Below, one piece after another: positions 40,352-50,830 of a stretch of 50,830 bases of DNA. The DNA comes from Paracoccaceae bacterium (GTDB lineage Bacteria > Pseudomonadota > Alphaproteobacteria > Rhodobacterales > Rhodobacteraceae). The DNA lies in assembly GCA_020425085.1 (NCBI GenBank), contig JAGQRW010000009.1:1-50830 (forward strand). The letters are read 5' to 3'. How positions within the stretch are numbered: the stretch's first letter is position 1; each line of letters starts with the position of its first letter. A program made the position numbers and the translations under genes. The notes under the pieces are model-generated. The model saw nothing but the letters and a program-made list of their open reading frames with translations. It did no database searches and had not been told where the DNA came from.

Positions 40352-40441
40352 GGAGGAGTGGCAGAGTGGTCGAATGCACTGGTCTTGAAAACCAGCGAAG
40401 GTGCAAGTCTTCCGTGGGTTCGAATCCCACCTCCTCCGCCA
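40352..40441 (+). tRNA. tRNA-Ser (anticodon UGA), CCA encoded
   Basis: The acceptor stem GGAGGAG (40352-40358) pairs with CTCCTCC (40431-40437), followed by G and encoded CCA at 40439-40441. The anticodon stem CTGGT/ACCAG (40379-40383, 40391-40395) encloses the loop CTTGAAA with anticodon TGA at 40386-40388. A long variable arm with GAAG/CTTC pairing and the T-loop GTTCGAATC identify a serine tRNA. It reads UCA and related serine codons. The foreign island begins directly after it. Confidence 0.97.
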
Positions 40442-40767: not shown

Positions 40768-42294
40768 TCAGTATGTCTTGTAAAAAGCCTCGGCCTCGAA
40801 CTTCACAAACTCCTCGGTCTTGTCGGTGCTTCGACTCACCACCTGCCAAGGCTCTAGCCTAGCGATTTCAGTTTGAAGGTCTTTTGCTGTTTTGTTGCTA
40901 CACCCAAGAATCTTTTGCACAGAATTGGCACTCACACCCTCGCATTGAAAAATATAGGCGAACTCAAGAAGCTCCTGAAAATTGAAGAATTCTTGCTGGT
41001 AATCGTTCGGCGATTGGCTTGCGAAAAAAACCACAACCCCTTTCGAGCGACCCTCACGGATAATTCTCTGAAGAAAAATGTTCTTTTGACTCAAGTAATT
41101 GTGTGCCTCATCAATGACCAAGATACTCCGAATAGTCCGCCTTCCATCTATGACTGGACTGTCTGGCATGTGCGCCATCTCTTTGTACAATCTTTCAATG
41201 ACAAGATACGCCACTAGTTCCTTCAGGACTGGCATAGCATGTACATCAATTATCAGCGTGCGATTGGAAATCCTCTCAATTGGGCGGGACTCGCTTCCAT
41301 GCTTCCAAAAGAGGTCGAAGTCGGAAAGATCACGCAGCACTTCAATGAGGCTGTCATCTTTCTTGCCATCTTCTTCATAGGCAGCGACTGCAATCTCTAG
41401 AATGTCCTGAAAGTCGGGATATGGAGTCGAGGACCCTGCGCGCTTCGCGTATCCAGCCCTAATGGCCTCAGTCAGCGCCCCTTTTTGAACGACACCTAGC
41501 TTAGCGTTAATTGAAGCAAAGCTTTCGGCCTTTTCCCGCGCAGAAATGTTTATATTTTGATCGTCATACGAAGGCAGAACGAACGGATTTATTGGCAGGC
41601 TTTGACCCGTCTGCAAAAGTCGATATGGCTGAACTTTTGCAATGCTCGCAAAGTTTTCGTTATCAACCACGTCACCCTTATAATCAAAGTAGATAAAGTT
41701 CGTTTGGAAATTCGACTGGATACGAATATCAGCCAGCAGCTTTAAAAGAAATTGTGTCTTTCCTACGCCAGGCTTGCCCATGATTGCCAAGTGTGAGTTG
41801 GCATGTCGCGACGTGTTGTTCAGCTCCATCACCAACTCGTTTCGCTGCAACAGCGTGCGCCCAATAAATATTTCCAGTCCCTGTCCAAAATTCTCCCTGC
41901 GACCTGAGAATTCTACCTTCTCTACAAGAGCGGAGATGAGGCCATCGCCGCTGCGCCCGCACGACTGAAACAGGTCGTTTAACAGAGATGCTCCGTGGTC
42001 GATGTGGTTCTTTGTGAGAGCGCGATTGGAAAACAGTTCATCTTCACTGAGATCTGGCTTTTTGTAAGTGTATGATAGAAGCGCCCGTACAAACGCTTCA
42101 TCATCAGCAAAAAAAGTTGGCCTTTTCATCTCGCCACCACTGAAATTCGGGCTTGAAGGAACATCCTTGCCGATCTGTGCAACCGACAGCGCAAATGCCA
42201 TTCTGGCAAGGGTCACCTTCTCCAGTTTTGTCTCGAACCGGAGGGCGCTCAAAATTTCATCAGCCTCACTTGAGGTATAGAGTCGATCAGCCAC
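40768..42294 (-). CDS. DndE-HerA fusion ATPase of a hybrid modification/defence operon
   Basis: The 508-residue protein begins with a DndE-like domain (about 1-113: RLYTSSEADEILSALRFETK, then a helical segment ending LTKNHIDHGASLLNDLF). DndE binds DNA in the sulfur-modification system. It continues as a HerA/DUF87-type ATPase: Walker A GKPGVGKT (173-180), Walker B ILVIDEAH (391-398), a downstream arginine region REGRSKG and the sensor-like FFASQSPND. HerA motors form hexamers that move along DNA. The gene is last in the operon, three bases after the DndD-like gene. GC is lower than in the core. Domain calls are from motifs; the DndE part is less certain than the ATPase part. Confidence 0.78.
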   Translation of the reverse strand: MADRLYTSSEADEILSALRFETKLEKVTLARMAFALSVAQIGKDVPSSPNFSGGEMKRPTFFADDEAFVRALLSYTYKKPDLSEDELFSNRALTKNHIDHGASLLNDLFQSCGRSGDGLISALVEKVEFSGRRENFGQGLEIFIGRTLLQRNELVMELNNTSRHANSHLAIMGKPGVGKTQFLLKLLADIRIQSNFQTNFIYFDYKGDVVDNENFASIAKVQPYRLLQTGQSLPINPFVLPSYDDQNINISAREKAESFASINAKLGVVQKGALTEAIRAGYAKRAGSSTPYPDFQDILEIAVAAYEEDGKKDDSLIEVLRDLSDFDLFWKHGSESRPIERISNRTLIIDVHAMPVLKELVAYLVIERLYKEMAHMPDSPVIDGRRTIRSILVIDEAHNYLSQKNIFLQRIIREGRSKGVVVFFASQSPNDYQQEFFNFQELLEFAYIFQCEGVSANSVQKILGCSNKTAKDLQTEIARLEPWQVVSRSTDKTEEFVKFEAEAFYKTY

Positions 42295-42297
42295 GGA

Positions 42298-44289
42298 CTA
42301 TCTCTCCCAAAAGTACCCGGATCTAAAGGTAGTAAGCTCTTGCCTTTGGTCGAAGTCTAGGCAGCCCGCACCACTCAGGTGAGGCTCAAGGCTCCTGTAA
42401 TAATTCGTGTCGATCTCCGTGTCAGTTGAGAGAATAACGACCTGATCGCCTGCATTCGGGAAATAGTTATTCACAATGTTGTCGCGGTGCGTGCTATCCA
42501 AACGGGAAAGCGGCGTATCAATGATTATTGGCAATTTGAGCTGACTCGTCTGAGCGAGCCCCCACAAAAGGGAAACAGCAAAAACTTCTTTCTCACCCGC
42601 AGACAGACCGGACTTCTTGATCTCATGCCCATTTCGATCGCTTATGCGGACTTCGTAAGTTTTGTCGTCAATGGTCAGGTCCTTGATCAACCCACTTCGG
42701 CTCGATAGAAGCCGGTACATCTCAAAAGTCTTTTCCTGAAGAAGATGCACCTTGTTCTTTCGCAGACGCACCATGAACTGATTGAGCACACTCGCAATGG
42801 AGTCGCACTCCTGAATGTACTCCGCCTTCTCCTTTGAAACGTTGTGCTTTTCAAAGAGCTTCTCGATCTCAATTTCTATGTCGCTAATTCGCTTCTCGAG
42901 CGCAATAATTTCATCCTCTAGAATGCGTAACTGTTCCGTTTTGCGACCAATCTGAGTTGAACAGCTTTCCATCTCTCCTTGCAGCTGCTCAAATAGTTCC
43001 CGCTCAGACTCCGTCATTGCTCCAAGAGCACTCTTGCTTTCAAGCGTGCGCACTTGAGATTCAAGCTGCCTTTTTTCTTCAATGAGAGGCTGAATTAGGA
43101 AGACTTCACTTCGCTCGAGGTTTTCCATTTGATTCAGCACGCGTGCCACGTCGCGATCTGAAAGGTCGAGAATCTTAGTTACATCGCCCCGACCATCTCC
43201 TTCTTTTAGCAGCCGTACTATGCGGCTCTCTAACTCCAGCATTTTTTCCGGTGAGAGCTGCTCTCGGTAGATCGGTTCCGGTTCCTCGACGACGCGAACG
43301 AGTCGCTTAGCCAATTCGGCAGCGTTCTCCTTGATGGCTGCTCCAGTCGCGGACTCCCGTTCCTTGTCGATTTGCTGCCGGACCCCGTCGAACAACTTAC
43401 CAGCCAGGGAGAAGGGAAGAGACTTCTCGCACAGGGCCCGGATTTCGTTTTCGACTTGAGTGAGTCGGTTTGTCGCCTGGATCCGCCGCTTTTCTTGTTC
43501 CCGCATGGCCTCACGGGTCTCGGGTTCGCTTTGGAAGGTAAATTCGAAGCGCTTCTTTGCGTCGGCGAGTTGCTCCTTAAAGCCCGCAAGTTCACCTTGT
43601 AGGTCGGCGCGCTCGTTGTTTTTCCGCGTGAGCTTGCTCTTTTCCTTCTTCAGCTCGCTCTGCTTGAATTCAAGATCCTCGTCGGAAATCTCGACGAACC
43701 CCTTGCGCTCCTCCTGCTTGATGTACGCAAGGTCAGACGCCAGTCGGTTTATGTTCTGAATGCCCAACGCCGCCTCGAGGGACGACTTCAGGCGGACTTC
43801 TGAATGGTCGTCCGCTGCGATCTCTTGAATCTTTTCACCGTCGAAAAAGAAAAACTGGGTGATCCCCGGCGGGATAGCCGCGCGGATGAAGTCCTGCCAG
43901 ATTTCCTGGTTCTGGACTGACACGCGCTTGCCGTCTCGAACAACGACCAATCGTTCGCTCAGATCCTTGGGCCTTGGGTCAGCGACCGCACCGGCGCTCC
44001 ATGACCGCTTGACGATCAGCTCGGATCCTTCGTCCATCTCCATGACCAGCTCGAAAACGACGTTTGCGTTCCCCTTAGCCTTTTCCCGGCGATTGATGTT
44101 GCGAAAGATCGTGTCCGGTTTCGCGCCATAGAGGCAGAAGTTGATGGCCTCCATGATCGAGGTCTTTCCGGCTCCGTTCATCCCACCGATCAGGAAGATG
44201 CTGCGCCCCTCGCCATCTGACGGAAAGGGGATCTCGGTCGCGAACTGAAAGGACTTGTAGTTCTCGATGGTCAGCTTGACGAATCTCAT
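42298..44289 (-). CDS. DndD-like SMC-family ATPase
   Basis: The 663-residue protein has an ABC-type head split by a long coiled coil (about residues 190-500). Walker A is GGMNGAGKT (35-43). FFFFDGEKIQEIA (146-158) is the hallmark of DndD. Signature LSAGEKE starts near 562 and LPIIIDTPLSRLD near 586. No CxxC zinc hook is seen. DndD works with DndC and DndE in phosphorothioate modification, where its ATPase acts on DNA. Here DndA, DndB and DndC are absent and a methylase operon takes their place, so the role is unknown. Its ATG overlaps the upstream stop (ATGA). Confidence 0.83.
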   Translation of the reverse strand: MRFVKLTIENYKSFQFATEIPFPSDGEGRSIFLIGGMNGAGKTSIMEAINFCLYGAKPDTIFRNINRREKAKGNANVVFELVMEMDEGSELIVKRSWSAGAVADPRPKDLSERLVVVRDGKRVSVQNQEIWQDFIRAAIPPGITQFFFFDGEKIQEIAADDHSEVRLKSSLEAALGIQNINRLASDLAYIKQEERKGFVEISDEDLEFKQSELKKEKSKLTRKNNERADLQGELAGFKEQLADAKKRFEFTFQSEPETREAMREQEKRRIQATNRLTQVENEIRALCEKSLPFSLAGKLFDGVRQQIDKERESATGAAIKENAAELAKRLVRVVEEPEPIYREQLSPEKMLELESRIVRLLKEGDGRGDVTKILDLSDRDVARVLNQMENLERSEVFLIQPLIEEKRQLESQVRTLESKSALGAMTESERELFEQLQGEMESCSTQIGRKTEQLRILEDEIIALEKRISDIEIEIEKLFEKHNVSKEKAEYIQECDSIASVLNQFMVRLRKNKVHLLQEKTFEMYRLLSSRSGLIKDLTIDDKTYEVRISDRNGHEIKKSGLSAGEKEVFAVSLLWGLAQTSQLKLPIIIDTPLSRLDSTHRDNIVNNYFPNAGDQVVILSTDTEIDTNYYRSLEPHLSGAGCLDFDQRQELTTFRSGYFWER

Positions 44290-44924
44290 GCGTGGTCCTC
44301 ACTCAGCTCCCAGATCCCTCGGGGCGAGCCCGTCTTGAGAACGCCATCCTTGGTCATCTGGTAGCGTTCCCAGCAGGCGTTGTTCTGCCAGGCGTGGTCC
44401 CTTGTCGTCTCGCGCCATTCCATGTCGCCGGGCAGCAGTTTGCCCTGCAGCTTCTCCTCCATGTACTGCAGCACGTCGTTCTTGTGGCAGGAACCACCGT
44501 GGTGCCGCAGTGCTTCCACGATCAGCTCACGGAGCGTGGCATTGGGCGTTTTCGGAGAGCGCGAGCGCTTCGCGCGCGGCTTCTTCGTCGTATCACCTTC
44601 CGAAGTGCGGCCGAGACGGGCCTTCAGGCCCTTCAGCAGCTCCTCCAGCTCGTCAGTGAGGTGATTGAGGACCTGCACGGCTTCGGCATTGACACCGAGG
44701 GCGGCGGCAAGCCGTGTCTTCTCGGCCCGCAGCGCGTCCGGTACCGCGACGCCGATCTTGTCGAGCTTGTCGATCGCCTTCGCGATCTCGCGCAGCTGCG
44801 CCTCCATGGCGGCGGTGTCTTCGGTTTCCGTCCCGGCGTCCAGGCGGTCGATGACCTCCTGGCAGAGCTCCAGCAACAGGCTCGGGTCCTTCACATAGCG
44901 ATCGACCTCGGACCCGTCCGTCAT
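44286..44924 (-). CDS. Mrr-N-like winged-helix protein of the hybrid operon
   Basis: The 212-residue protein has a helical N-terminal half with coiled-coil character (about 10-110), a basic linker (KKPRAKRSRSPK) and a C-terminal winged-helix domain (about 125-212) with LRELIVEALRHHGGSCHKND and GSPRGIWELSEDHA. The latter resembles the DNA-binding N-terminal domain of the Mrr restriction protein. No nuclease motif is visible. It overlaps its neighbours by ATGA at both ends. A role as DNA-binding adaptor between the methylase part and the SMC ATPase is inference. Confidence 0.65.
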   Translation of the reverse strand: MTDGSEVDRYVKDPSLLLELCQEVIDRLDAGTETEDTAAMEAQLREIAKAIDKLDKIGVAVPDALRAEKTRLAAALGVNAEAVQVLNHLTDELEELLKGLKARLGRTSEGDTTKKPRAKRSRSPKTPNATLRELIVEALRHHGGSCHKNDVLQYMEEKLQGKLLPGDMEWRETTRDHAWQNNACWERYQMTKDGVLKTGSPRGIWELSEDHA

Positions 44925-45103
44925 GGCGCACTCCCGGACGACGACTTCAGGATCTCGCGCAGCGCGTCATACACCCCGGTGCGGCGCTCCTTGAACTCAT
45001 AGTCCCGCACGGTGTCGAGCAGCTTCACCACCTTGTCCGGGTTGACCCCATGCTGTTCGCACAGCTCCTCGAGCAGGCGCTTGTCTTCCGTCGAGAGGTT
45101 CAT
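44921..45103 (-). CDS. Small DNA-modification-associated protein (60 residues)
   Basis: The 60-residue protein MNLSTEDKRLLEELCEQHGV... is charged and helical, with EYEFKERRTGVYDALREIL-like sequence in the second half (DYEFKERRTGVYDALREIL). I recall short proteins of this kind next to DNA modification operons, but no function. Both ends overlap the neighbouring genes by ATGA, which argues that it is a real, translated part of the system and not a chance frame. Confidence 0.7.
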   Translation of the reverse strand: MNLSTEDKRLLEELCEQHGVNPDKVVKLLDTVRDYEFKERRTGVYDALREILKSSSGSAP

Positions 45104-46482
45104 GCCGCCACTGCCTCCTCGATCAACTGTTCGACACGTGCCTTGGCTTGCTCTAGGAGCCTGGCCGACTCCCGCTGCTGGGCGAGGCTCTCACGAACCA
45201 GGTCGCCGATTTCCCGCTGCTTTTCGCTGGGCAGCAAGGGCACGACGAACTTGTCGATGTCTGCAGGATAAAGCTCGGCCTGGGCGCTGCCGCGCGCGTG
45301 CTTTTGGGTCTGGAACTGACCGATGACGGACTGAAAGACCATCGCCATGTAGGCGTGGTCGATATCGGGAGAGAGGCGCAGGATGTTGACGTGATTGCTG
45401 GCGAATGCCGGCGTATCGTCCAGATAGACGTTCGTCCGGCCGATGTACGCGCCGGTGGTGTAGATCAGCAGATCGTCCTTGTAGATGTGCGCTTCCGGTG
45501 CAGCATTGAACAGCTTCTCCGTCGTCCGCTGCAGCCCTTCGTAATTGATGTGCTTCGGGCCAAGGTGTTGGCTGTTGACGACGGCATGGGCCCCGCCTTC
45601 AACATAGATGGGCTGGATGCCTCGGCGGTTCAGGCGACGTACTTCGCGAATGCGCCGCGTAGGGAAATTCGATAGATGCGATGCAAGCTGCATAAACCGG
45701 GGCTGAAAGTGTTGGGCATCCGAACGTAGAGAAATCTCAAGCTCGCTGAAGCTCGCCGCATAGCCCATCGGCCTATCGAACTTTAGGGAGTTTAGCCGTA
45801 GTTCAAATGACAACTTCTCAAGGGCTTCATGGAAAATGAGATCGGAGCGATCAGAGGCAGAAAAAGAAGCCCTTACAACGTATCCAATCTTACGTTGAAC
45901 TTCCGCGCTAGGGAGTGGTACCAGTATTCGCTCAACTTCTCGACAGTTGAGATTTACTTGCTCCGTCCTGCGGGAGTGCCTCCAGACTTGATCTCTTCCA
46001 AATTTGGTTTGAAGAAATGCAGTTAGGAAATAGGGATCACATTTACCGTTTGTTGAAATCACCGCAACATTCTGGTTCGTAACGCACGGTGGATCACTCG
46101 CCCGAATAATTGCGGCGCGCCCAACAATTTCAGGAGTTGCGCCAATGATCGTAATCACAACTGAATCGGGGGGAATGAGATCAGACTTGCTCAATACACG
46201 TTTCGGCAACTCGCCGGCACTACTAAAGTTTACAGTTCCCTCCCTGACACCGTCTGTCTTAATAAATGCAACGATTTCGTCGTTACTCTTAATATTACGG
46301 GACGGCGGTGTTCTTCCGGTCCTGACAGGTGCGCTAATGAGCTTGGAGAGCTTTGAAACGCCAAACCGTTCTTCGATCTTTTTCCAGACTGCAAGCTCTT
46401 CTAGATAGTTTGGATGATAGAAATCCGCGTCGATACGGGAATACTCAATTTGGGATTGAGCGACTGAAGAGCATACCGCCAT
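45100..46482 (-). CDS. hsdS: Type I restriction-modification specificity subunit (HsdS)
   Basis: The 460-residue protein has two target-recognition halves separated by conserved helical parts, with VPLPSAEVQRKIGYVV after the first (about residue 190) and VPLLPSEKQREIGDLV near the end, followed by the long helix EQAKARVEQLIEEAVAA. It chooses the DNA sequence that the methylase modifies. The recognition regions are more AT-rich than the flanks, a sign of exchange between systems. It begins as TAATG with the methylase stop. The target sequence cannot be predicted. Confidence 0.87.
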   Translation of the reverse strand: MAVCSSVAQSQIEYSRIDADFYHPNYLEELAVWKKIEERFGVSKLSKLISAPVRTGRTPPSRNIKSNDEIVAFIKTDGVREGTVNFSSAGELPKRVLSKSDLIPPDSVVITIIGATPEIVGRAAIIRASDPPCVTNQNVAVISTNGKCDPYFLTAFLQTKFGRDQVWRHSRRTEQVNLNCREVERILVPLPSAEVQRKIGYVVRASFSASDRSDLIFHEALEKLSFELRLNSLKFDRPMGYAASFSELEISLRSDAQHFQPRFMQLASHLSNFPTRRIREVRRLNRRGIQPIYVEGGAHAVVNSQHLGPKHINYEGLQRTTEKLFNAAPEAHIYKDDLLIYTTGAYIGRTNVYLDDTPAFASNHVNILRLSPDIDHAYMAMVFQSVIGQFQTQKHARGSAQAELYPADIDKFVVPLLPSEKQREIGDLVRESLAQQRESARLLEQAKARVEQLIEEAVAA

Positions 46483-49238
46483 TATTTGTCCCCCCAGAAC
46501 TCAAACTCTTGTTCCTGAGCAAAGCGAACAAAAGCTTCGGCCACGCAGAGCTGCTCATCCGGTATGCTGGCAGCATCCGTCAGATCACTGGCCGTCAGAT
46601 CGTAGTTTACGAGGTCCTGGTCGATCTTGGGTTGGCCGCTGGGGTCCTCGATCATGTGCCCTTCGCCATCCAGCATGAACTCATAGTCGCCAGAGTTGTT
46701 CTTGCCGCCGCGCTCGCTGACCGCCATGAAGATCGGATAGTCCAACCGCTTGGCGACCTCGGCGGCGATCCAGCGCTCCTTCAGCGTGCCGATCAGGTCG
46801 TCATCGCCCAGCACCAGCTCCAGCTTGCCCCGGTTTGTCAGGAGCTTCAGGTCAAGCTCCGCCTCGGGGATCGCCTTTTCCAGCCGCTTGATCTCTGCCT
46901 TCAGCCGCTTGGCGGTCTCTTTCTGCTTTGCCTTGAGGGCCTTCACGGACTCCTTGTGCTCGGCCTTGATCGGCTTCAGATGCGCGGAAAGCTCGCGCGC
47001 GGTTCCGGCAAACGTGTCGCCGATCGCCTCGATCTCGGTCTTCTGCTGCCATTCCAGCGCCTCAATATCGCTCTCGAGGTCGATGAGCTTCTGCTTCACA
47101 CCGACCAGCTCGCTCTTGAGCGCTTCGACCTTGTCCTCCGCTGCCGCGATCCGGTCCTCCTCGCTGGGTGGCTCGGGCGCGTCCTCATCATCTTCGCCTT
47201 CGGCGTCCTCGGCGGCAGCTTCATCGGGCTCCGGCTCGCTGAATGTCTCGCTGATCAGATCGGCCACGGCGTCGGGGATCGCGTCTTCGGGCACATCCCC
47301 TTCGTGCGCGTCCAACAGGGCTTGGATTTCGGTTTCATACGCCGGGCAGTCCTTCGCCACGTCGTCATGGACCCGGGCGATGTCGGCCAGCTGCTCGTCC
47401 GTGTACTTCTGGATGAACAGGACCGACGTCTTGGTCCCGGTGTGCGGCTTGAAGGTGTTCGGGTGCAGGCCGACGACAGCAAGCAGGCGCGCTTTCTTCA
47501 GGATCCACTCCCGGATGAAGGCCAGCGAGGAGTTGTTGAACTTGCCCTGGGGCAGAACGATCGCGGCACGACCGCCGGGGCGCAGCATCTTCAGGATGCG
47601 CTCGATGAAGAGCACGTCGCGCTCTTCCTTGGCGGCCTTGTCGGACCCGGCCCGCTTCAGAGCGGGCTTGGTTAGCTCGTAGCGCGCCAGCATCTTGCGG
47701 TCCTTCATCTCCCCCGCGAACGGGGGGTTGGCCAGGACCACGTCAAACTTCAGCTCGTCGAAATACTCCCACGCTCGATCATCGTCCTTGAGCGTCTCCT
47801 GCTCGGGGATTTTGGCAGCCGTCAACTTCGCCTGCCTCAGGCCATGCATGAGCGCCTGTCCCGAGCTGTTCTCGTACCAGGTTCGAGGGTCCAGGCTGCT
47901 GACGTCCGGTCCGAAGATGTTCGTATGTCCGTCACCGGCAATCAGCATCAGCGCGCGGGACGTCTTGGCTGCGCGGGCCTCGAAGTCGATGCCCCAGAGA
48001 TATTTCGCAGCGTATTTGTGCTTGCGAAGCTCCCGCTTGTCGTTGTCATCCGCCGGGTAGCACCACTCCATCGCATGCAGAAGAAAGCCGCCCGATCCAC
48101 AGGACGGGTCCATGACGTATTCTTTCTGCGTGGGGTTGAGCATCCGGACGCACATTTCGACGACATGCCGCGGCGTAAAAAACTGACCCTTCTTCTTCTT
48201 CGCCTCTGTCGGCAGAAGATACTCGAAGGCATCGTCCATGATCCGGAGATTCGAGCCCATCAGCCGGACGCCCTCTATCGGGCCGACACAAACTTGCAGA
48301 TGGCGCTTCGCCAGTTCGATATCTTCGTTCTCCTTGAAGATACCAGGCCACTCCTCACAAGCTTTTTTGAACAGGCCATTGATCCGATCGAAGGTGATGT
48401 CCGGATCGAGGGCCTTGCTGAACTCCACGGTCTTATCTTTGCGGTTCTCCAGCGCTTCTTTTTCGTCCCAGATCTTAGCAAATATCAGTTTGAATATTTC
48501 ATTGAACTCGTCCTTGCCGCTGTCGGCCAGAACCAGCTCCTCAAGATCTTGGATAATCTTCTTGAAGTTGAAATCTCGCTTCAGCTGTAGAAGCGTTTTC
48601 TTTGCCTCAAGAACATCCTTGGGCTCCTGGCCCCGCTTTGGAATATCGAATAGCGTGTCATCGAAATTCTTCGGATAGGGGCGATATAGAATTATGCTGT
48701 CGCTGCCATTGGACCAAACGGCAACGGGTGCCCCCTTGGCATTCATATAGCTCTTCAGCTGCTCGATGCCGTCTTTGCGCTTCGGCTTCTTGCATTCAAC
48801 AATGATCTTCGGGGTATCCTTGGCATTGTCAGTGTAGACGATAATGTCTGCCGCCTTCGTGCCCACCTCCACGCCAAACTGGACGCCGGCCTCCAGGTCA
48901 ATTTCGTCATTCTTGTATCCGTATTGGTTTATGAGCTTATAAACCCATAATTGGCGGATTATTTCCTCGGGAGCAGACTTCCCACCCTCAACAAAGACTT
49001 GCACTTCCTCATTTCCAGATGAGAATGGAATAAAGCTTTTCAAGAAATACTTTACCTTTCCGGCATCCCGGCCGGTGGAGGTGGTTTTTGGATATATCGA
49101 TACGATTTCGTGAACTGGTTTTCCCAAGTTTTCGAACTCAGTAAGCTCGTATGCTGTACTCGGATCCTTGAATATGTGATCGATTATTTCTTTGGTATTC
49201 AACGTATCATGTTCCGTGTCGATATTCGCGTAATTCAT
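46482..49238 (-). CDS. N6-adenine methylase with N-terminal HsdR-type nuclease domain
   Basis: The 918-residue protein combines three parts. Residues 60-210 form a type I R-subunit N-terminal domain with a PD-(D/E)xK core: Asp131 in AADIIVY, then Glu148-Cys-Lys150 in IIVECKK. Residues 330-690 form an HsdM-type methylase, with QFFTPRHVVEMC, motif I DPSCGSGGF (377-385) and motif IV NPPF (504-507). Residues 690-830 have an acidic stretch and a coiled coil. The fused layout recalls single-chain type IIG or ISP enzymes, but the helicase domain is missing and HsdS is separate. ATG 49238 overlaps the HTH gene stop (ATGA); the frame is open to 49310. It should methylate and possibly cleave DNA with its partners. 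Confidence 0.87.
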   Translation of the reverse strand: MNYANIDTEHDTLNTKEIIDHIFKDPSTAYELTEFENLGKPVHEIVSIYPKTTSTGRDAGKVKYFLKSFIPFSSGNEEVQVFVEGGKSAPEEIIRQLWVYKLINQYGYKNDEIDLEAGVQFGVEVGTKAADIIVYTDNAKDTPKIIVECKKPKRKDGIEQLKSYMNAKGAPVAVWSNGSDSIILYRPYPKNFDDTLFDIPKRGQEPKDVLEAKKTLLQLKRDFNFKKIIQDLEELVLADSGKDEFNEIFKLIFAKIWDEKEALENRKDKTVEFSKALDPDITFDRINGLFKKACEEWPGIFKENEDIELAKRHLQVCVGPIEGVRLMGSNLRIMDDAFEYLLPTEAKKKKGQFFTPRHVVEMCVRMLNPTQKEYVMDPSCGSGGFLLHAMEWCYPADDNDKRELRKHKYAAKYLWGIDFEARAAKTSRALMLIAGDGHTNIFGPDVSSLDPRTWYENSSGQALMHGLRQAKLTAAKIPEQETLKDDDRAWEYFDELKFDVVLANPPFAGEMKDRKMLARYELTKPALKRAGSDKAAKEERDVLFIERILKMLRPGGRAAIVLPQGKFNNSSLAFIREWILKKARLLAVVGLHPNTFKPHTGTKTSVLFIQKYTDEQLADIARVHDDVAKDCPAYETEIQALLDAHEGDVPEDAIPDAVADLISETFSEPEPDEAAAEDAEGEDDEDAPEPPSEEDRIAAAEDKVEALKSELVGVKQKLIDLESDIEALEWQQKTEIEAIGDTFAGTARELSAHLKPIKAEHKESVKALKAKQKETAKRLKAEIKRLEKAIPEAELDLKLLTNRGKLELVLGDDDLIGTLKERWIAAEVAKRLDYPIFMAVSERGGKNNSGDYEFMLDGEGHMIEDPSGQPKIDQDLVNYDLTASDLTDAASIPDEQLCVAEAFVRFAQEQEFEFWGDK

Positions 49239-49432
49239 GTGTCCGACCCTGCTTTCCCACTCGCGTTCGATTTCATCCACTGGTCGATTTCTTCGCGATT
49301 GAACCGCCACTGGTTGCCGATCTTGGAAGCAGGCAGCTCGCCGCGTTGAGCCATCCCGTACAGCTTGGTCCGGCTCAACTTTAGGTAGGAGGCGAGCTCA
49401 TCAATGGTCAGCCATTTGTCGGATGCGTCCAT
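49235..49432 (-). CDS. Helix-turn-helix protein, excisionase/AlpA-like (HTH_17)
   Basis: The 65-residue protein is a single MerR-like helix-turn-helix: WLTIDELASYLKLSRTKLYG, then MAQRGELPASKIGNQWRFNR and EEIDQWMKS. Such proteins regulate transcription or act as recombination directionality factors; here it is the first gene of the methylase operon and overlaps the methylase start by ATGA, so it is probably its regulator. GGTGA lies before the ATG. A perfect inverted repeat upstream could be its binding site. Confidence 0.82.
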   Translation of the reverse strand: MDASDKWLTIDELASYLKLSRTKLYGMAQRGELPASKIGNQWRFNREEIDQWMKSNASGKAGSDT

Positions 49433-49462
49433 ACGGTCACCATTGATGGAGTGAAAAAACGG

Positions 49463-49487
49463 TGTTGTTTGATAAGATTAGACAACA
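49463..49487 (-). promoter_or_regulatory. Inverted repeat upstream of the hybrid operon
   Basis: TGTTGT (49463-49468) and ACAACA (49482-49487) form a perfect inverted repeat with a 13-base AT-rich spacer, 31 bases upstream of the first ATG of the operon. It is a candidate operator for the HTH protein. The 187 bases up to 49619 otherwise hold no gene that I can support; a 44-residue rightward frame from 49489 has no family resemblance. Confidence 0.45.
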
Positions 49488-49619
49488 GATGTCATCGAAG
49501 GGCAAGCGGTCGATTGATGCGAGAGCTCAACCCGGCCGCTGCCTGTCGATGACCGGGGACATGGAGATGGTCGTGCTGGTCGTGCCCATCGACCAGGTGG
49601 ACCCATCAGCCTGCGACAC

Positions 49620-50024
49620 TTAGCCGGTGATGCAGTATCGTGTTTCTTGCACGTCCCACTCGGCAGGGACGTGCCTTAAGAGATCAGCCAATGTCACGGT
49701 GTGTGACAAGCGGCCATCCAAGATGGTATCGACCATAGCGGGCGAGAGAAGACTTAGGCGCATCACCCGTGTCATATAAGTTGGTGCAATATCTTCGCGG
49801 TTTGCGAGCTCGGTCATGGTGGCGAAATGACCGCTTTCGAGCATGCGCTGCCACCGAAAGGCGCGCGCTAGTGCCTTGACCAGTGCAGCGTTGGGTTTTC
49901 GTGGTAGCGCCGCTCCATCAGGCATGTTGCTCGGCCACACCAGTTCCTTACGGCCGCCGCGCTTTATGACACGGAACGGAACGTGGATAGTCACGGTCTC
50001 GGGGATCGTCATCCCGCGGGTCAT
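49620..50024 (-). CDS. ParB/KorB-like HTH small protein associated with the recombinase
   Basis: The 134-residue protein has a basic N-terminal part (FRVIKRGGRKELVWPSNMP) and a helix-turn-helix region of the ParB/KorB kind (LANREDIAPTYMTRVMRLSLLSPAMVDTILDGR). Its start overlaps the recombinase stop by ATGA (50024-50021). Proteins like it follow large serine recombinases in many alphaproteobacterial islands, but I know no proven function. A DNA-binding partner for integration or excision is a reasonable inference. Confidence 0.7.
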   Translation of the reverse strand: MTRGMTIPETVTIHVPFRVIKRGGRKELVWPSNMPDGAALPRKPNAALVKALARAFRWQRMLESGHFATMTELANREDIAPTYMTRVMRLSLLSPAMVDTILDGRLSHTVTLADLLRHVPAEWDVQETRYCITG

Positions 50025-50830
50025 GCGGCTTCTCCGATGCTGCCAGACAGCATCTCACGCGCGAGCCCTCCAAGGCCGTCCATGCGCAGGCGGACGTTGA
50101 GCCCATCCGTGCCGATGTCCACGCGCTCGACCAGCAGCGCCACGATGCGTGCCTGTTCGGCGGGGAAAAGTTCGTCCCACAGAGGGTCGAGCTGCTGAAG
50201 CGCTGCCCGTGCGTCGGCCTCGGTGATCTCCTCGTCCTGTGTTCGACTCGCTCTCAACGTGCCCGCCACGATCTCGGGCTGGCGAAAGACGGCGCGAAGC
50301 TGGTCGATCACCGCCGCCTCGATATCGCCCGCGGGCACGCGGCCGACCGGGCACGATCCAGCACCATGTTTCAGCACCGTCTGGCTGACATAATAGCGGT
50401 ATAGCCTGTCGCCCTTGCGCGTATGCGTCGGTGAGAACGCGGCGCCATCGGGCCCGAACAGTAGTCCTTTCAGCAGCGCGGGCGTGTCGGCGCGTGTGCG
50501 GGCGGCGCGCCTGCGGGGGCTTTCCTGCAGGATTGTATGGACACGGTCCCACGTGTCGCCGTCGATGATGGCGTCGTGTTCGCCGGGGTAGCTGTCGCCC
50601 TTGTGGACCGCCTCACCGATGTAGGCGCGGTTGCTGAGCATCCGATAGATGTATTTCTTGTCGATCCGGTTGCCGCGCGGGGTGCGGATGCCGCGCGTGC
50701 CGACCTCTCGCGCCAGTTCCGTGCAGGACCCGATCTCAAGGAAACGGGCGAAGATCCAACGCACATGCGCAGCGGCTTCTTCGTCGACTACCAGCTTGCG
50801 GTTTTCCACCCGGTAGCCGTAGGGCAGCAC
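50021..50830 (-). CDS. Large serine recombinase, C-terminal part (5' end outside window)
   Basis: The 269 visible residues contain the recombinase domain (LPYGYRVENRKLVVDEEAA, then ILRTPRG-like GIRTPRGNRIDKKYIYRML, NRAYIGEAVHKGD) and the region of the zinc ribbon (LLFGPDGAAFSPTHTRKGDRLYRYYVS). The catalytic serine domain lies beyond the window edge. In this subgroup most zinc-binding cysteines are replaced, so the ribbon may not bind zinc. Such enzymes integrate and excise islands at specific sites. It probably moves, or once moved, the region at 40442-50830. Confidence 0.88.
   Translation of the reverse strand: MLPYGYRVENRKLVVDEEAAAHVRWIFARFLEIGSCTELAREVGTRGIRTPRGNRIDKKYIYRMLSNRAYIGEAVHKGDSYPGEHDAIIDGDTWDRVHTILQESPRRRAARTRADTPALLKGLLFGPDGAAFSPTHTRKGDRLYRYYVSQTVLKHGAGSCPVGRVPAGDIEAAVIDQLRAVFRQPEIVAGTLRASRTQDEEITEADARAALQQLDPLWDELFPAEQARIVALLVERVDIGTDGLNVRLRMDGLGGLAREMLSGSIGEAA

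Follow-up and report, generated by a model that had tools for sequence, protein, structure and literature searches.

A candidate restriction–modification operon with a Dnd-derived motor in a Paracoccaceae bacterium

The operon and its protein families

We analyzed a 50,830-nucleotide stretch of DNA from a Paracoccaceae bacterium (assembly GCA_020425085.1; hereafter, the window), which makes up the entire contig JAGQRW010000009.1, focusing on a putative defense operon of seven leftward open reading frames (ORFs) at positions 40768–49432 of the minus strand. In the direction of transcription these encode a helix-turn-helix (HTH) protein, a nuclease–methylase fusion (RM), an HsdS-type specificity subunit, a protein of 60 amino acids (aa), a winged-helix protein, a DndD ATPase, and a DndE–HerA fusion. 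Searches with Pfam, PADLOC, and NCBIfam agreed with the places and families given to all seven in an original prediction made from the DNA alone. That prediction also described the six joins between the genes as coupled, and they are, by five overlaps of one to four bases and one gap: four bases (ATGA) are shared at each of the HTH/RM, HsdS/60-aa protein, 60-aa protein/winged-helix, and winged-helix/DndD joins, one base (TAATG) is shared by RM and HsdS, and three bases separate DndD from DndE–HerA. These values depend on moving the RM start, however. The listed GTG at 49310 would overlap the HTH gene by 76 bases, whereas an ATG in the same frame at 49238 shares an ATGA with the HTH stop and agrees with the starts of homologs, so the RM protein is probably 918 aa long.

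The RM subunit (46482–49238, minus strand) comprises an N-terminal nuclease, an N6-adenine methylase, and a long two-helix region (HSDR_N_2 77 bits and N6_Mtase 126 bits in Pfam), and among solved proteins RM.BsaXI is the closest to it (E 3.5e-36 by sequence and 2.9e-45 by profile). According to PMC11997821, BsaXI is an (RM)2S enzyme whose two long helices form a paddle; the nuclease-domain substitutions E73A, D90A, E105A, or K107A each abolish cleavage, as do the paddle substitutions D816A (with low residual activity) and E823A. The four nuclease-domain residues align with E116, D131, E148, and K150 (918-aa numbering) in a nuclease core at 48684–48971 on the minus strand, and 32 of 33 RM sequences conserve all four, the exception (from locus L066) starting at a contig end. 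Because these BsaXI-essential residues are kept, the RM chain likely contains a working nuclease, and the nuclease is probably built into RM rather than supplied by the motor. The methylase positions D401, C404, S406, and G408 and the NPPF motif at 528–531 (942-aa numbering) are kept in all 33 sequences. In an AlphaFold model of RM, built from 23 sequences, the alpha/beta region at the N-terminus would suit a nuclease, and two very long helices stand in succession (693–742 and 747–798); three BsaXI chains rank first when the model is searched with Foldseek (E 5e-20 to 1.1e-19; top 8w0p). The copy of the RM gene in Paracoccus sulfuroxidans (L038:3003-5831) may be broken, because it reads as two ORFs of 438 and 488 aa.

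The HsdS-type specificity subunit (460 aa; 45100–46482, minus strand; Methylase_S 52 bits in Pfam) has S.BsaXI as its sole solved match at E<=0.001 (E 3.4e-4). The pair resembles a Type IIB enzyme in that a nuclease and an N6-methylase share one chain, with catalytic residues kept in a nuclease segment that aligns at 12.6 bits, and an HsdS-type S gene adjoins it. Median pairwise identity among HsdS sequences is 27%, compared with about 68–74% for RM (70%), DndD, and DndE–HerA. The window is about 95% identical to the DNA of P. sulfuroxidans L038 outside positions 45783–46519 (minus strand), a stretch that finds no blastn match in L038 and corresponds to the first HsdS recognition half; from 46519 to 50830 the identity is 94.6%. 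Against another relative, L037, nearly all of hsdS lacks a DNA match. We read these differences as specificity swapping on a fixed machine, the first recognition half having probably been exchanged between the window and L038.

The motor genes lie at the other end of the operon. DndD (663 aa; 42298–44289, minus strand) is an ABC/Rad50-like ATPase that scores 393 bits against TIGR03185 (cut-off 245.85), and its Walker A lysine, AGEKE motif, and Walker B aspartate are kept in 45 of 45 sequences. The final gene (40768–42294, minus strand) encodes a 508-aa fusion of DndE to a HerA/FtsK translocase (Pfam DndE 40.4 bits and DUF87 29.1 bits; NCBIfam DndE 38.4 bits, under its cut-off of 71.85), whose closest solved relative is DptH (7es4, E 8e-20) and whose Walker A GKT and VIDEAH motifs are kept in 54 of 54 sequences.

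Between the two modules, the 60-aa protein (44921–45103, minus strand; PF20306, 47.8 bits) is a stand-alone DndC tail (Sp-DndD) and a predicted DndD adaptor. It matches the DndC models of PADLOC and NCBIfam at their C-terminus only, aligning to positions 395–446 of the 447 in TIGR03183 (20 bits, E 5.1e-4). In Escherichia coli B7A, residues 433–482 of DndC bind the DndD head, as judged from an AlphaFold3 model and pull-downs, and L458D/E462A/R471A breaks the DndC–DndD complex (PMC12193691). The DndC of E. coli H240 carries L458, E462, and R471 under the same numbers, and in an alignment with it the 60-aa protein keeps L458 and R471. Since the protein maps to the DndD-binding segment of DndC and retains these two residues, we read it as a free-standing DndD adaptor.

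The original prediction held that neither HsdR nor DndA, DndB, or DndC is present. Because the window is a whole contig, HsdR and DndC genes that might lie just outside it were sought across the genome. The HsdR family TIGR00348 has no match in the whole genome, as predicted, and a search with TIGR03183 matches only the 60-aa tail gene (DndA and DndB lay outside the genome-wide search). The absence of DndC thus holds for its catalytic part, while its tail is present. At the level of sequence, the operon pairs a restriction–modification (R-M) enzyme, whose nuclease and methylase residues are apparently intact, with a Dnd-type motor that lacks the sulfur chemistry.

Recurrence and exchange of the modules

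The gene order is conserved in other genomes, as the original prediction expected. We scanned GTDB genomes with a DndE–HerA alignment (A1) and examined the best 80 of 114 relatives, of which 64 (L037–L100) show 51–99% identity and 16 (L101–L116) show 26–31%; A1 itself included three distant homologs, so the distant loci are not independent of it. Our census consists of those close loci, 40 of the 64, whose fetched sequence extends 7.8 kb or more upstream; the other 24 were left out. All four upstream partners (RM, specificity subunit, tail, and DndD) are matched in 34 of these 40 loci, fragments and split ORFs counted, 31 of them in the order of the window and three (L046, L050, and L089) with a specificity half fused to RM. 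Under stricter filters (at least 45% identity over 150 aa for RM and DndD, 100 aa for HsdS, and 40 aa for the tail) there are 32 such loci, 30 in order and two fused; L089 and L094 fail on DndD alone. By record titles, which can err for binned genomes, the 34 loci span about eight phyla: Pseudomonadota, Nitrospirota, Acidobacteriota, Desulfobacterota, Planctomycetota, Bacillota, Bacteroidota, and Omnitrophota. Similar loci are present in cultured bacteria, such as Methylotuvimicrobium buryatense (L054), and four of the phyla (Pseudomonadota, Desulfobacterota, Bacillota, and Bacteroidota) are represented by named isolates.

In loci such as L063, L073, and L083, the genes for RM, HsdS, tail, DndD, and DndE–HerA stand back to back, and we therefore take these five to be the core. 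Clusters c2 and c6 of recurring neighbors were ruled out as parts of the system, being two-component regulators in the members scanned. No further close DndE–HerA was found in 385 genomes of the class or 398 of the phylum (best other match, 32% identity), and no DndD in the same-genus genomes G001–G009, one weak partial match aside. Among viral contigs (viral_contigs), single DndE–HerA or DndD queries found no relatives and A1 found one distant locus. At L071 (L071:8089-10008), the first part of the DndD ORF resembles RM (67% over 130 aa), which would fit a deletion that fused both genes; this match inflates the count for RM taken by itself.

Neither HsdR nor catalytic DndC accompanies the operon in its close relatives. 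Searches of the 64 close loci with phmmer (E<=1e-4) gave no match to two HsdR queries and none to DndC beyond tail matches, the latter result being carried by four DndC queries, with the fifth reference, from L119, a neighboring ORF. In a genome-wide check that covered 30 of the 64 loci, in 29 genomes, DndC exceeds its cut-off in three genomes and comes near it in one more; HsdR exceeds its cut-off in 16, and seven have no HsdR match at E<=0.001. Among the 19 genomes in which the tail match reveals the contig of the operon, only G778 has HsdR on that contig, more than 1 Mb away from the operon. The distant loci do carry DndC: in 15 of 16, a PP-loop DndC is followed by a separate small tail-like protein, DndD, and DndE–HerA, and the sixteenth (L108) is cut off.

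The distances of the operon's proteins co-vary to different degrees. Those of DndD and DndE–HerA correlate at r=0.97 (n=43 loci), those of RM at 0.78 with DndD (n=29) and 0.80 with DndE–HerA (n=31), and those of HsdS with the other genes at 0.39–0.46; none of 499 permutations reached any of these values, which are not corrected for relatedness. The modules also occur apart. A Trichormus plasmid (L026) carries RM and HsdS genes 81% and 51% identical to those of the window, and neither its gene table nor blastp, covering the plasmid only, revealed motor genes. The motor was probably lost there, since the Trichormus RM nests among motor-linked RMs (support 0.995 for its group with the window in a midpoint-rooted FastTree phylogeny). 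More distant RM and S pairs at about 40% identity (L028–L030) have no motor match in the stretches fetched, and the genomes of L029 and L030 have no DndE–HerA match.

Conversely, at L067 (L067:4556-11530), the position of RM and HsdS is filled by a Type II methylase of full length (715.6 bits) together with a TdeIII nuclease (PADLOC 126.4 bits, Pfam 241.7 bits), 138 bases before the tail, winged-helix, DndD (as two ORFs), and DndE–HerA genes; the motor can therefore accompany a complete R-M system of another type. L090 (L090:362-9850), a fragmented metagenome locus, encodes a methylase of Type III-like kind and, below its Pfam cut-off, a Res-like protein, both farther upstream of tail, DndD, and DndE–HerA. 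Both are single cases. The motor of L077 stands beside housekeeping genes, and the 3 kb of upstream sequence examined there contain no R-M genes; at L051 (L051:5395-11527) DarT- and macro-domain-type genes accompany the motor with no RM ortholog upstream.

The slot between HsdS and the tail holds exchangeable cargo in related loci (for example, L043:6099-7169, L039:4635-5675, L058:4067-5760, and L040:6273-6860), including RhuM family proteins, a YhcG/DUF1016 nuclease, DarT with a macro-domain protein, a zeta-toxin-like protein, and DUF4258. RhuM, DarT/macro-domain, and YhcG nuclease genes are kinds frequent in defense or toxin–antitoxin loci.

Proposed mechanism and alternative explanations

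We propose, with somewhat better than even confidence, that the operon encodes a motor-coupled R-M system in which a Dnd-derived motor aids a BsaXI-like Type IIB enzyme in restricting unmethylated DNA. The RM and HsdS-type chains would form an enzyme that reads a two-part site and methylates adenine there in host DNA, and RM would bring its own PD-(D/E)xK nuclease, which is supported by sequence and presumed active. Methylation, as the original prediction also supposed, would protect self DNA. By analogy with true DndC–DndD complexes, the DndC tail, now separate from any sulfur-transfer domain, would sit on the DndD head as an adaptor and may tie DndD to the RM–S enzyme. DndD, as a Rad50-like clamp, and the DndE–HerA fusion would bind DNA and move along it, as is known of their families. 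On incoming unmethylated DNA the motor might scan, loop, or translocate, bringing the RM–S nuclease to its sites for cleavage; this is the least certain step. Swapping of HsdS would alter the target and leave the motor untouched, and the whole would act as a mobile anti-invader system on a probable island beside a tRNA-Ser gene.

Several observations weigh against this proposal. Six of the 40 census loci (L051, L067, L071, L076, L090, and L095) are without one or more of the four partners, a number that rises to eight under the stricter filters, and E462, one of the three DndD-contact residues, is not kept in the 60-aa tail. The nuclease segment of RM aligns weakly to BsaXI (12.6 bits), so the residue mapping leans on conservation and on the HSDR_N_2 match; it covers the four nuclease-domain residues, and the BsaXI paddle residues D816 and E823 fall outside it. 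Confidence in the RM model is intermediate (pLDDT 71.6, pTM 0.53), and as a whole the model fits BsaXI poorly (TM-score 0.34–0.38, rmsd 35–38). Type IIB enzymes are described as ATP-independent, so a motor is unnecessary for cutting as such. DndEi, the DndE–helicase fusion of phosphorothioate (PT) systems, is reportedly essential for modification and not for restriction.

This role of DndEi favors the main rival to motor-aided cutting, in which the motor serves marking: tail, DndD, and DndE–HerA would scan host DNA and deliver RM–S for methylation, as DndCDE does for sulfur marking, and the nuclease would cut without the motor. The rival arises because relatives of the motor work in sulfur marking, and the PP-loop DndC that a related motor accompanies in 15 of the 16 distant loci belongs to a modification machine. 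RM and S pairs nevertheless exist without the motor in the sequence examined, including the one at 81% identity, and BsaXI needs no motor; at L067, moreover, the R-M system next to the motor is of the TdeIII kind, and its methylase is an ordinary Type II enzyme. We consider a marking role unlikely but credible.

Less probable still is a block like those of MADS or BREX, in which methylation would mark self, the SMC/HerA proteins would stop phage DNA without cleavage, and the nuclease domain would be structural. The operon overlaps with MADS at the domain level (MAD1, MAD2, MAD5, and MAD8-like matches), and the restriction mechanisms of both BREX and MADS are listed as unknown (PMC12904381). 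The four nuclease residues are, however, conserved in 32 of 33 sequences, and, by blastp at E<=0.01, no window protein matches the mad3 or mad6 of a MADS locus, whose mad7 is matched only at E 0.008.

The original prediction's own model, in which DndD/HerA motors serve a Type I methylase as restriction subunit in place of HsdR, agrees with the lack of an HsdR match in the genome and with the presence of an ATP-driven translocase, but we regard it as very improbable: RM and S match the Type IIB enzyme BsaXI, RM has its own nuclease, so that no restriction subunit need be missing, and RM and S are found apart from the motor. That an R-M enzyme and an orphan Dnd core are independent systems, adjacent because both collect in defense islands, would account for the RM and S pairs without a motor and for the motor of L077 without R-M genes, but is scarcely credible against overlapping genes, correlated distances, and an order shared by 31 of 40 loci plus three fused (30 plus two under stricter filters) across phyla.

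Motor-aided restriction could be one instance of a broader arrangement, which we put forward tentatively: tail, DndD, and DndE–HerA may together make up a portable, ATP-driven cassette able to plug into R-M systems that are complete in themselves, with the tail as universal adaptor. Its partners would be BsaXI-like enzymes in most loci, the Type II TdeIII system in L067, and possibly a Type III system in L090. If this is true, ordinary restriction enzymes gain from the cassette an SMC/HerA machine for search and capture. The operon joins two defense lineages usually treated apart, base-methylating R-M and the sulfur-marking Dnd machine, and suggests that the DndD/DndE–HerA motor is not tied to sulfur chemistry. 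It is also a clean system for asking what the motor does: R-M and motor are on separate genes, and the adaptor is just 60 residues.

Known systems, genomic setting, and accessory proteins

The operon shares with BsaXI (PMC11997821, 8w0p) an RM chain with an N-terminal nuclease, an N6-adenine methylase, and long antiparallel helices (predicted here), E/D/E/K nuclease residues, and a separate HsdS-like S subunit, encoded next to RM here; BsaXI, however, is a two-subunit enzyme without DndC tail, DndD, or DndE–HerA. The operon differs from Type I R-M in that its genome has no match to the HsdR translocase-nuclease (TIGR00348). DndEi-type Dnd phosphorothioation loci (L011, L101–L116; PMC10853773) have a separate DndC-tail-like protein, DndD, and DndE–HerA in the same order, but in 15 of the 16 distant loci a PP-loop DndC occupies the place that RM and HsdS have in the operon, and the DndE–HerA of the distant loci is 26–31% identical to that of the window. 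A DndD–DndE core is present, with DndE fused to HerA; we rejected filing the operon as Dnd, since only the tail, and no catalytic DndC, was matched genome-wide.

DndDE cores with other partners are described in PMC10853773, which reports cytosine methylases with CxC ATPases and DndE–HerA fusions in PT systems. The CxC ABC ATPase–DndE systems, including PbeABCD, resemble the operon in combining a DndD/DndE-type core with a base methylase and not with sulfur chemistry. They use a CxC ATPase, an HKD-SF2 nuclease, and C5/N4-cytosine methylases (PMC10853773), in contrast to the DndD clade, DndE–HerA, and BsaXI-like adenine RM with HsdS found here. The window ATPase scores above the DndD equivalog cut-off, with PbeC models also matching, and no SF2 helicase domain is among the Pfam matches of the operon proteins. 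The terms HsdS and HsdM are absent from the main text of PMC10853773.

The HTH, methylase, HsdS, and HerA-type ATPase classes of MADS are also found in the operon, and MAD1, MAD2, MAD5, and MAD8-like matches are among the PADLOC and NCBIfam matches listed, MAD2 and MAD5 far below their NCBIfam cut-offs. We rejected filing the operon as MADS, because the full mad1–mad8 set is lacking and mainly domain classes are shared with a MADS locus (L129) that shows mad2, 3, 5, 6, 7, and 8. Besides the missing mad3 and mad6 counterparts, the L129 methylase is 28% identical over 404 aa, and window DndD has no match in L129. The 1804-aa mad8 of this locus (L129:14530-19944) matches the DndC tail at residues 1037–1068 (E 7e-4; 44% over 32 aa), which may distantly connect MADS with the operon. 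A three-gene locus (L128:3621-12533) encodes a MAD2-like methylase, HsdS, and a 1755-aa protein with a C-terminal HerA-like region.

DndFGH/DptFGH share a related HerA domain (DptH, 7es4), but just the C-terminal HerA part of DndH matches, among the matches listed, and in a search that covered the operon proteins only, NCBIfam gave no match to DndF or DndG. The BREX set of PglZ, BrxC, and PglX is represented among the NCBIfam matches of the operon proteins only by weak PglX methylase-domain matches far below the cut-offs, and a further HerA system, as described in PMC12839542, lacks the gene set. The claim that no characterized system has this gene set is consistent with the open-access literature searched, in which we found no description of it; most subscription papers lie outside that literature, so absence is unproven.

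The operon probably lies on an integrated island, because a tRNA-Ser gene (40352–40441, plus strand; ARAGORN) stands at one end and a serine recombinase at the other. The tRNA-Ser, beside the 3' end of the operon, is a possible integration site, and a tRNA-Ser is also found near the operon at L037. The recombinase (50021–50830, minus strand; Recombinase 61.8 bits and Zn_ribbon_recom 35.4 bits in Pfam) is cut by the contig end, lies within the flank at 49620–50830, and is likely the mobility gene of the island. Scans for promoters and terminators gave chance-level results only.

The winged-helix and HTH proteins are accessory. The HTH protein (65 aa; 49235–49432, minus strand) is HTH_17/excisionase-like (70 bits in Pfam) and MAD1-like (73.9 bits in NCBIfam, under the cut-off of 80); blastp finds it in six of the 40 census loci, and it may be a regulator or part of a mobile element. 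The winged-helix protein (212 aa; 44286–44924, minus strand) has a helical N-terminal half and an Mrr_N-like C-terminal half (21.6 bits, below cut-off). Foldseek with its model (pLDDT 85.5, pTM 0.45) returned many winged helices, none at E<=0.001. It is found by blastp in 24 of the 40 census loci, and a profile detects 14 more diverged ORFs among the 64 close loci. That it reads methylation status is only a lead, suggested by a DpnI winged helix among the weak matches and by one near-threshold RAMA match: a diverged relative in L083 comes near the RAMA cut-off (33.2 of 35.2 bits). In two loci (L086:2-2110 and L091:3824-5750) the winged-helix gene stands in three tandem copies.

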